Origin: Candidatus Abyssobacteria bacterium SURF_5
GTDB taxonomy: Bacteria > Abyssobacteria > SURF-5
Assembly: GCA_003598085.1 (NCBI GenBank)
Contig: QZKU01000002.1
Location: forward strand, 1-14,642
Direction: 5' to 3'
Length of the DNA: 14,642 bases
Every line of letters begins with the position of its first letter. The first letter of the stretch is position 1. Below are positions 2 through 3,334 of this stretch, in pieces. A program made the position numbers and the translations under genes. A model generated the notes under the pieces. It made no database searches, was not told the origin of the DNA, and saw nothing but the letters and a program-made list of their open reading frames with translations.

Positions 2-100
2 CCTTTGCGAATACACAAAAAAGGTATACACCATTTCGCTCTCAAAATGGCGGGGTTTGATTCGATCCTAGGTGGCGGGTTTTAAGTGACCGCTGACAAT
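2..100 (-). pseudogene. Out-of-frame remnant of the SIR2-domain C-terminus
   Basis: Reading leftwards, the fusion gene reaches LLY (codons 107-99) and then continues in its own frame with an unconvincing basic tail to a stop at 42-44. The frame shifted by one base (starting at 100) reads DRIKPRHFESEMVYTFF and then VYSQR to the window edge. This resembles the family's usual C-terminal segment, roughly EW-x-x-(I/L)-K followed by FM-x-T-I-F-G-Y-S. A TAG at 68-70 sits just where the family tryptophan (TGG) is expected. The family pattern is from memory, not from an alignment. The reading is one frameshift plus one nonsense change; a sequencing or assembly error near the contig edge could explain the shift. 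Confidence 0.45.
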
Positions 101-1292
101 ATAGAAGCGGGACTTTTTGGAAACGTTTCCCGCAAATTTTGCAGGTACCTCTGAGCCATGAACCACCTTTGTTGCTATGTTCAGGACAGTAACCAACTGC
201 TACGTTTCCATGAAGGAAAACGACCTTTGGCGGGTCGACTATCTGATAATTTCGCTGGCAGGTCATATAGAGAAGGGGATCCCAATTGAAGGTGGCGATC
301 AAATCCTTCGGTCTTAAAGACATAACGAGATAATCATAAATTGTAGGCTCGTCGGGGAGTTGAAGCGACCGGAAATAGTCGTCAACTTTGTATTCGATCA
401 GTTTTGGAAGTTTGCTGGATTCATCCTCCGTTAAAGCACTGTATATCTCCTCAAAATTAGTGCCATCACAATTGACCTTATCTGATTCAAGCAATTCCCT
501 CAGTCCAACTACGTCGATTATGTCGTTCATAAGCGGAAGTTTTCGGCCATTTCTATCTCCTTCTGGAAAGGCTGCGAGACTTGCGCCCGCACCTAGTATT
601 ACGACATGACGTTTCCCCATAGATGTGTCGGCAATTTCTTGTTCTACAGTACTTGAAGATAAGTCATCAGGAAGATTCTCAGAATTACAGCTTATTAATA
701 CGGTACGATCTGCCTCTTTTCGAAGAGTGTCGGGTGAGCTCTTGACCTGTGATTTATATAATTCGATTTTGGCCGTTATCTGCCTGGCAATTTCAGGAAC
801 TCCAATATACGAGGGCAGCGCTTTAATGTCGGCCAAGAGAATATCTTTTCCGCGTATCTCTTCTGGAGTGATGTTATGGAAGATGGGCAAGATTACGTCT
901 TCTTGGCTGTTCCCTTTTTGTCTCAGAGCTGCCAATTCAGCTTTTGGCCATTTCTTACGAAAATAGTGTGGACTTAGGACCACAATTCCCCAATGTGAAT
1001 GGCGTAGCCCTTGTTCGATTGCGCGACTGATTGAATCCCCAACCTGTAGGACATGGTCATCAAACCAGATTTCGAGATGGTGGTCGCCCCGTAAGGCATT
1101 AGCTAGCGCTGAAACAAACGGCTTATCCTCGCTTGCGTAAGAAATGAATGCATCCCATTTCATGCTTCGTTCCCCAAAAGCGATGCTCTTATCAGGCTGG
1201 ACAATTTTTTCCTGCGACTCAGGCTTTAATTTCTTCCCATTCACCCAAGGTTTGGAGAATGGAGGAATCCATCTATCATTTCCTCTATCCAT
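42..1292 (-). CDS. TIR-SIR2 fusion protein, putative antiphage NADase; C-terminus probably frame-disrupted
   Basis: The 416-residue product joins two NAD-processing folds. Residues 44-180 form a TIR domain, opening with MKWDAFISYASEDK. The WPKAEL motif places E119 at the usual catalytic glutamate of TIR NADases. From about residue 227 a SIR2-like domain begins: glycine loop GAGAS (234-238), TFNWD (334-338, candidate catalytic N336 and D338), FLHGN (359-363, H361) and a probable zinc site C369/H372 with C384/C387. TIR and SIR2 domains in bacterial immunity (Thoeris, DSR, SIR2-Argonaute) make NAD-derived signals or deplete NAD; a similar role here is inferred. The last 18 or so residues do not look like the family, and the expected continuation lies in another frame (see 2-100). 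Two starts are possible: ATG at 1292 (upstream GGGAAG) or ATG at 1163, exactly at the TIR domain (upstream GGGGAA). Base composition is AT-richer than the right half, for example 22 G/C in 661-720. It lies 168 bp downstream of the nuclease-like gene on the same strand. Confidence 0.8.
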   Translation of the reverse strand: MDRGNDRWIPPFSKPWVNGKKLKPESQEKIVQPDKSIAFGERSMKWDAFISYASEDKPFVSALANALRGDHHLEIWFDDHVLQVGDSISRAIEQGLRHSHWGIVVLSPHYFRKKWPKAELAALRQKGNSQEDVILPIFHNITPEEIRGKDILLADIKALPSYIGVPEIARQITAKIELYKSQVKSSPDTLRKEADRTVLISCNSENLPDDLSSSTVEQEIADTSMGKRHVVILGAGASLAAFPEGDRNGRKLPLMNDIIDVVGLRELLESDKVNCDGTNFEEIYSALTEDESSKLPKLIEYKVDDYFRSLQLPDEPTIYDYLVMSLRPKDLIATFNWDPLLYMTCQRNYQIVDPPKVVFLHGNVAVGYCPEHSNKGGSWLRGTCKICGKRFQKVPLLYCQRSLKTRHLGSNQTPPF

Positions 1293-1460: not shown

Positions 1461-2324
1461 TCAATCTGTTACAACGGCGGGATCAGTAGCCGTCGCCTGT
1501 TCGAATGTTTCAGATGCCGGAATAAACGCTGGCCGTGCGAGAGTCGGGGCTGGTTGTAATTTTCCCTTTGGCTTGCTACTTTGCTTGCTTACTTTTCGGA
1601 GGGTCCGACGCACCCGAGAAAGCGCCTTTGAAGCTTCTTCACCTTCGATTATATCTCTTTTCAAAACCTCGTTTAAGAGTATTTTCTCGATTTCTTCGTC
1701 CCGAATTCGTAGTCCCGGTGTCAGTTTCTTCAGGTCTCTGCGCAGAGTCGAAAAAACGCTCTCCTGTCGCAGCAATGCGCCTATTATGAAGCGGTTGACG
1801 CTTTGTATCTTCTCATAGAAAGTTTCCCGAGCCGCCCTGGCCAGTCCTTCTTTTGAAAGAATGAACAGTTTTTCCTGATCTTCAGCCTTGCGCGCGCTCA
1901 ATTCCAAAAAATTGAAGGAATAAACAAGGTCGTACTGGATGGGTTGTTCAAATCTGATCTTGTAGAGTTCCCAGTTAATTCCATTCGTCAGGACCGCCCA
2001 TTGAGCCCCATGATTCGCGCAATAATCTACTGCCTGGCGGAGATGGTTTTCTTTTAAAGTTAGGCCAATCGCTTTAACTTCGATAACATTCTGGACCGTT
2101 TCACCCATTTTTATGGCAAGATCGCAGAATGTCCCTCGGATACAATATTCGGAGGTAATTTCCAGGTACTTATCGAAACCCATTACTTCAGAAAGGATAT
2201 CTTGCACGATTGCCACTGTGTCCGCTTCGTTAACATCTCTGTCTCTCGCAATCTGAAGGATTCGTTGGAACTTGGGAACCGTTGAGACGAATCTTGCCGC
2301 TACCGCCTTCGGGATCGAAATCAT
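1461..2324 (-). CDS. Stand-alone HsdR N-terminal-like PD-(D/E)XK nuclease domain protein
   Basis: This 287-residue protein resembles the HSDR_N nuclease domain of type I restriction subunits. The residues fit a PD-(D/E)XK site: D68 in FCDLAIK, E82-x-K84 in VIEVKAIG, then Q97-x3-Y101 (QAVDY), the QxxxY motif typical of HsdR-type nucleases. E59 upstream may also contribute. There is no helicase/translocase domain, and no hsdM or hsdS lies in the window, so this is a lone nuclease-type protein and not a classical type I subunit. The C-terminal 40 residues are basic and proline/alanine-rich and probably disordered. I chose ATG 2324 over the more upstream ATG at 2378 because GAGGAGGGG lies about 10 nt before it and the conserved part starts with MISIPKAVAARF. 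The TIR-SIR2 gene follows on the same strand. Cleavage activity is inferred; the role could be defence or something else. Confidence 0.8.
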   Translation of the reverse strand: MISIPKAVAARFVSTVPKFQRILQIARDRDVNEADTVAIVQDILSEVMGFDKYLEITSEYCIRGTFCDLAIKMGETVQNVIEVKAIGLTLKENHLRQAVDYCANHGAQWAVLTNGINWELYKIRFEQPIQYDLVYSFNFLELSARKAEDQEKLFILSKEGLARAARETFYEKIQSVNRFIIGALLRQESVFSTLRRDLKKLTPGLRIRDEEIEKILLNEVLKRDIIEGEEASKALSRVRRTLRKVSKQSSKPKGKLQPAPTLARPAFIPASETFEQATATDPAVVTD

Positions 2325-2420
2325 TTCCTTATTCCCCTCCTCTTTAGACAACGTCAAGGAATAACATTTTTGCTTCAAGCAGTCTTAATCGGTTTCAAGG
2401 GCGATGTATGGACCGGTCAC

Positions 2421-2825: not shown

Positions 2826-3113
2826 ATGGACTGTGGAGAAATAGTTTTCAGCGGCCATGCCGTTCAAAGAATGTTCAAGCGAAAGATTACTCCTGCCCAA
2901 GTGCGCGCTGTCCTGGAATCAGGAGAAGTAATCGCAAGCTATCCGGAAGACACTCCCTTCCCGAGTTATCTGCTTTTTGCGGTAGTAGATGGGCGCCCTC
3001 TTCACGTGATCGCGGCGCTGGAAGAGGAGGAAAGAAGATGCTACGTTGTTACGGCATATGTACCTGAAATCGAAATATGGAGTGACGACTTCCGGACAAG
3101 GAGAAACCTATGA
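2826..3113 (+). CDS. DUF4258-family protein, putative toxin of a type II TA pair
   Basis: This small protein of 95 residues matches the pattern of DUF4258: an N-terminal S-G-H-A-x-x-R-M-x-x-R-x-I block (HAVQRMFKRKIT, residues 11-22), a central PxSYLLFAVVDGRPLHVIAA strand region and a C-terminal YVVTAYVPEIEIW. DUF4258 genes are often paired with YgiT/MqsA-type zinc-finger genes, and the family is thought to be RelE/MqsR-like; RNase activity has not been shown here. The stop overlaps the start of the next gene (ATGA, 3110-3113), so the two are surely co-transcribed and translationally coupled. The order toxin-then-antitoxin matches mqsRA. The start follows a poorly spaced GGAAGG. Confidence 0.8.
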   Translation: MDCGEIVFSGHAVQRMFKRKITPAQVRAVLESGEVIASYPEDTPFPSYLLFAVVDGRPLHVIAALEEEERRCYVVTAYVPEIEIWSDDFRTRRNL

Positions 3114-3334
3114 GATGCGTCATTTGTAAACAGGGAGAGACGCGCCCTGGCACAGCAACTGTCACCTTGCAGCGGGAAGAAAGCACCATCATTATCAAAG
3201 ATGTCCCCGCTGAGATCTGCGAGAACTGCGGCGAATATTATCTTTCAGAATCTATCACTGAAAAAGTCATGACTCGCGCAGAGGAATCAATCAAGAAGGG
3301 CGCTGAGGTTGAGATCCTCCGCTTCGCAGCTTAG
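3110..3334 (+). CDS. YgiT-type zinc-finger protein, putative antitoxin
   Basis: This protein of 74 residues begins with MRCVIC and carries two CxxC pairs, C3/C6 and C37/C40, that should bind one zinc ion as in the N-terminal half of MqsA. The DVPAEICENCGEYYLS stretch (31-46) is a hallmark of YgiT-type zinc-finger proteins. The C-terminal helix-turn-helix DNA-binding half of MqsA is absent, so autoregulation by this protein alone is doubtful. GGAG (3100-3103) lies six bases before the ATG, which overlaps the DUF4258 stop. The likely role is to neutralise the upstream protein; this is inferred from family pairing and the overlap. Confidence 0.82.
   Translation: MRCVICKQGETRPGTATVTLQREESTIIIKDVPAEICENCGEYYLSESITEKVMTRAEESIKKGAEVEILRFAA

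Follow-up and report, generated by a model that had tools for sequence, protein, structure and literature searches.

The locus at the start of this stretch of DNA raises the question of whether a single gene joins a TIR domain to a SIR2-like domain, two NAD-consuming modules, and whether such a gene still encodes a working protein, as an earlier note made from the sequence had pictured it. The window analysed here is the whole stretch of 14,642 nucleotides that opens contig QZKU01000002.1 (below, C2) of Candidatus Abyssobacteria bacterium SURF_5. An open reading frame of 416 codons (42-1292, minus strand) carries the TIR and SIR2-like parts in a single frame. The reading that we favour, with a probability of about 0.6, is that this ORF is what remains of an NAD-depleting effector, probably anti-phage, that joined TIR and SIR2-like domains in a single chain and has since been inactivated. 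Its parts are laid out as follows.

99-1292, minus strand: TIR-SIR2-like fusion gene, native part (residues 1-398 of the ORF), with its 3' end cut.
765-1163, minus strand: TIR domain, residues 44-176 (about 44-184 in the model), by TIR_2 profile and structure match.
936-950, minus strand: WPKAE (a WxxxE motif), from W115 to the catalytic-type E119; W and E are invariant in 25 TIRs.
663-764, minus strand: linker of residues 177-210, for the most part disordered in the model (pLDDT <50 at 186-213) and without an in-frame start codon.
99-662, minus strand: SIR2-like domain, N-terminal half only, residues 211-398 with the lead-in TVEQEIADTSM counted in; 45-55% identical to a standalone family.

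A ribosome-binding-type motif, GGGAAG, was located 7 nt upstream of M1. No in-frame ATG, GTG or TTG codon was found between residues 153 and 225; TVEQEIADTSM, the segment that leads up to M225, is similar to the beginning of L014, a standalone relative (VEEQTNDTSM). On these two grounds the TIR and SIR2 halves are one gene, as far as sequence can tell. The same segment is also similar to the lead-in of another relative, L099 (TVTDEIEDVSN). A separate SIR2 start at M225 was considered and ruled out, since no ribosome-binding motif precedes it and homology reaches further upstream. The proposal that both domains belong to one chain was therefore borne out, with one ORF, one start and no internal start in that interval. 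The model of the window protein showed disorder at residues 186-213 and 216-220 and had a pTM of 0.48; with the linker disordered and pTM this low, no contact between the TIR and SIR2 parts, and no relative placement of them, is predicted.

Upstream of the fusion by 168 bases and on the same strand lies an ORF of 305 aa (1461-2378, minus strand) that matched HSDR_N_2 (type I restriction; E 6.4e-7); no homologue of it was found in the loci of other members of the SIR2-like family. Further into the window (2826-3334, plus strand), a DUF4258 protein and, after it, a small YgiT-like protein with CxxC form a toxin-antitoxin-like pair.

The TIR_2 profile search that had been proposed gave a match at residues 49-155 (E 4.9e-21; 75.9 bits, cut-off 28). 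Consistent with this result, the TIR model superimposed on PdTIR (3h16) with a Z of 21.8 and an rmsd of 1.7 over 135 residues, and on AbTIR with a Z of 19; the nearest solved structures were PdTIR, Brucella BtpA/TcpB, BtTir and AbTir. The WxxxE motif aligns with that of PdTIR and BtpA. AbTir cannot cleave NAD without E208, the counterpart of E119, and depends on W204 to produce cADPR (PMC11374754). The window TIR thus has the fold, the sequence profile and the WxxxE motif of a bacterial TIR NADase domain, and the suggestion that it is likely to be catalytic, made from E119 in WPKAEL, is upheld by the conservation of W115 and E119 across the aligned TIRs.

In the SIR2-like part the following features were identified.

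579-593, minus strand: GAGAS nucleotide-binding loop, residues 234-238; among 85 sequences G234, A235, G236 and A237 are conserved in 95-98% and S238 in 89%.
285-287, minus strand: N336 of TFNWD, at the ThsA N112 position by motif; N in 84 of 85 sequences.
210-212, minus strand: H361 of LHGN, at the ThsA H152 position by motif; H in all 85 sequences.
132-188, minus strand: zinc-type motif C369-x2-H372 ... C384-x2-C387, complete in 57 of 84 relatives and degenerate in the rest.

Mutation of ThsA N112 (N112A) or H152 abolishes NAD cleavage (PMC7272460). The predicted CxxH/CxxC zinc-type insert was found as described, and in the family it takes the consensus form C-x2-[CHDE] ... C-x1-2-C after the HG. 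In canonical deacylase sirtuins the zinc insert sits directly after the catalytic HG. The SIR2_2 antiphage sirtuins are without the zinc module of the deacylases, a module that is needed for deacetylation (PMC12700824); this point seems to separate the family, in which the insert is present, from SIR2_2.

Profile searches did not recognise this half of the protein. Pfam, NCBIfam and PADLOC gave no SIR2-like match in the SIR2 half of the window protein, so that the SIR2_2 search suggested beforehand came out negative; neither SIR2 (PF02146) nor SIR2_2 (PF13289) exceeded its cut-off in the window or in 51 family members, and PF13289 was absent from the source genome at its curated cut-off. The family profile, searched against PDB sequences, returned chance matches only, and structure comparison was therefore used instead. 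The SIR2 fold was modelled on L014 (51-row alignment), the window copy having only the N-terminal half of the domain. The L014 model (mean pLDDT 94, pTM 0.92) aligned in VIA-align with SIR2-HerA (Z 14.8, rmsd 5.1, 261 aligned residues) and BcThsA (Z 14.1, rmsd 3.5, 226 aligned residues), and it also matched KomC, DSR2 and SPARSA (Z in the 12-15 range) as well as canonical sirtuins. Canonical sirtuins formed the top Foldseek rows, whereas the best VIA-align Z scores were those of SIR2-HerA, ThsA and KomC. In the model of the window protein itself the SIR2 N-terminal half was confidently predicted; the VIA-align matches listed for that model were TIR structures. The comparison with ThsA and the DSR proteins, which had been called for, thus supports a SIR2 fold for the modelled family. 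The assignment of a SIR2-like domain holds for the motifs GAGAS, TFNWD and LHGN and for the fold of the family model, but the domain is present only as its N-terminal half. In agreement with the earlier note, no SLOG domain was seen in the surviving part, nor was a TM or macro part in its place; the gene's own 3' end is missing, and the relatives, at about 340 aa, are filled by SIR2.

The reason for the missing half lies at the edge of the contig, since base 1 of the window is base 1 of C2.

1-98, no strand assigned: end of a mobile repeat, beginning TGTCAGCGGTCACTT on the minus strand; an identical end stands at the start of contig C140.
42-98, minus strand: non-native tail of the ORF, encoded by the repeat (residues 399-416, CQRSLKTRHLGSNQTPPF); a different ORF in C140 closes with these 18 residues and the same stop.

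The first 98-99 or so bases of the window are identical to the start of C140, from the same genome, where the repeat end interrupts an unrelated, repeat-rich gene; the start of contig C47 carries a repeat end that is 81% similar. Because C2 and C140 have this end in common, residues 399-416 can be assigned to a mobile element, and the native gene ends at residue 398. On the coding strand the repeat end carries paired, spaced TGGCGGG(G)TTT terminal repeats, by which the element is probably IS21-like. A search for a transposase that would confirm the family (IstB) gave weak or DnaA-like AAA matches only, and comparison of the repeat end with plasmids gave no match.

Homology of the fusion ORF stops at LLY398, whereas all of its relatives run on for about 150 conserved residues, a C-terminal half that includes conserved K, Y and W residues, FGYSAPxxDxxA and PRR. 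No credible match to a profile of that half turned up in the assembly (5.1 Mb). The mobile element has therefore inserted inside the SIR2 domain, with the second half either lost or unassembled. As the surviving SIR2 part is without half of its fold, the window copy should be devoid of sirtuin activity. The picture of a working protein consequently fails for this copy.

Relatives of the SIR2 half, at 45-55% identity, were obtained by tblastn and genome scans from Vibrio, Stenotrophomonas, Shewanella, Bacteroidota, Bacillota, Zixibacteria and many others. Most are proteins of about 340 residues that start some 15 residues before an HVVxLGAGAS motif; an intact standalone example is the Vibrio plasmid protein WP_040122577.1. 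The family is widespread and nearly invisible to the models of Pfam, NCBIfam and PADLOC: Pfam and PADLOC gave no usable match on two standalone relatives, and AbiH (PF14253) matched weakly in two of 51 members (best E 7.7e-6) and not in the window protein. No relative was found in the phage collection. Within two genes of some standalone members, PADLOC and Pfam identified BrxL, Dsr1, an AbiC-like protein and an AbiJ N-terminal domain, together with methyltransferases, resolvases and integrases/recombinases. These neighbours suggest enrichment near defence genes; no conserved partner gene was found next to the standalone members.

Several members depart from the standard form. L099 (1132-2565) has a different N-terminal extension of about 150 residues with no Pfam match, and since its lead-in is similar to that of the fusion, N-terminal fusion to this SIR2 appears to recur. 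In L072 (7947-10199), an ORF of 750 residues, the SIR2-like domain comes first and is followed by a long additional C-terminal part. Decay is frequent in the standalone family: in one phylum sample five of seven matches had in-frame stops, the decayed cases including L110-L114 (G743, G781, G479, G765 and G629), and L024 and L078 are split ORFs. On a Vibrio plasmid (L008), the standalone gene is adjoined by a second SIR2 protein, a SLATT protein, an ATPase and McrBC-type genes, a locus that looks like a defence island.

The survey for a second TIR fusion covered 80 genome loci, six viral contigs and four plasmid records; the genome loci were the best 80 of 110 relatives, and rarer fusions could have escaped. 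Of these approximately 90 relatives none carried a TIR in its SIR2-like ORF, and neither phmmer nor a 25-sequence TIR profile showed a clear TIR gene in the fetched flanks (within 8 kb), the one borderline match being in L027 (E 0.011). A search for relatives in 386 genomes and a phylum sample of 392 gave more members and no TIR fusion. A viral scan with the TIR alone as the query gave no match, unlike the scan with an alignment query. No paper describing such a fusion was found in a literature search that included the phrase 'TIR-SIR2'. In the legend of Extended Data Fig. 2 of PMC12700824 (a sirtuin tree, 2025), TIR is named among the domains that share a protein with SIR2_2; on the strength of that legend, TIR and SIR2 in one chain are not wholly unrecorded in print. 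The architecture had been put forward as perhaps rare, and we likewise read it as rare.

Had the homologues always been separate genes and the fusion a product of assembly, the earlier note would have withdrawn its proposal. The relatives come close to the first of these, as roughly 90 of them are standalone and TIR-less, but the ORF itself is internally continuous, which a join of two separate genes in the linker does not explain. Such an artefact is very improbable: the GC3 of the linker (0.29) is below that of both flanks (0.43-0.45), but the join is in frame and far from the contig end, and what precedes M225 looks like the native N-termini of the family. A recent accident is a less distant prospect, although still rather doubtful. 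In that case a TIR gene and a standalone SIR2-like gene would have been joined in frame in one lineage, with no selected joint function, and would then have decayed through a mobile element. The solitary fusion, the lack of a clear TIR gene near the other members and the fact that this gene is already broken would fit such a history; the frame that stays open through a linker region devoid of start codons, and the recurrence of N-terminal fusion in L099, speak against it.

It is unlikely that the SIR2-like half was a zinc-containing NAD-dependent deacylase or ADP-ribosyltransferase regulating the TIR, with the TIR as the NAD-cleaving effector. The insert that 57 of 84 members have immediately behind the catalytic HG, the absence of the module from SIR2_2 antiphage sirtuins and its role in deacetylation (PMC12700824), and the canonical sirtuins at the top of the Foldseek rows all favour such a role; in contrast, one third of the members have a degenerate motif, the best VIA-align scores are with antiphage sirtuins, and defence genes are among some of the neighbours. 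For the NAD-depleting effector that we prefer, both folds, W115/E119, N336/H361, the single ORF, truncation by the repeat end, the BrxL, Dsr1, AbiC and AbiJ neighbours and the weak AbiH matches in two members count in favour. Against it count the lack of a second TIR fusion among the relatives that would indicate maintenance by selection, the placement of the zinc-type insert, which makes deacylation possible, and the disordered linker with no predicted domain contact.

The ancestral protein would most likely have been an effector of the abortive-infection type. Its TIR domain would be activated during infection, assemble and cleave NAD+, and the attached SIR2-like domain would cleave NAD+ as well, so that one chain would combine sensing or signalling with NAD depletion; in the source genome the mobile element has inserted inside the SIR2 domain. 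The intact fusion thus most likely served infection-triggered NAD+ depletion; NADase activity of each domain, a function in phage defence and coupling of the two domains in cis are what we infer from the evidence above. A more specific version, again unlikely, is a one-gene Thoeris-like switch without a SLOG receptor, in which the TIR product (cADPR-type) or TIR assembly turns on the tethered zinc-containing SIR2 NADase. If it were true, intact versions would exist elsewhere, and these would provide a test of TIR signalling and SIR2 NAD depletion coupled within one chain. The widespread SIR2-fold family, which Pfam, NCBIfam and PADLOC pass over almost completely, is itself a candidate for an uncharacterised one-gene NAD-depleting defence, because its catalytic-type residues are kept and some of its loci adjoin known defence genes.

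Among known systems, Thoeris likewise pairs a TIR with a SIR2-fold domain, the catalytic N and H positions are present here and the family model aligns with ThsA (Z 14.1). The window has one ORF, whereas Thoeris has separate ThsB and ThsA genes; ThsA is a SIR2-SLOG protein, and SLOG is lacking from both the surviving part of the window protein and the standalone relatives. The window TIR scored 75.9 bits with TIR_2 against 22 bits with Pfam ThsB_TIR and is closest to TIRs of the PdTIR/BtpA/AbTIR type. The standalone family of about 340 aa has the same motifs and zinc-type insert at 45-55% identity to the window SIR2 half, but is without a TIR and has its C-terminal half intact. The SIR2_2 plus TIR proteins, known from the legend in PMC12700824 rather than from compared sequences, also hold both domains in one protein; the window SIR2 half differs in falling below Pfam SIR2_2 and in having the zinc-type insert that SIR2_2 reportedly lack (PMC12700824). 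DSR1/DSR2, SIR2-HerA, Avs5 and SPARSA have in common with the window family the SIR2 fold (Z 12-15) and the catalytic-type N and H; their sensors are long C-terminal parts or partner proteins, whereas the window protein has an N-terminal TIR.
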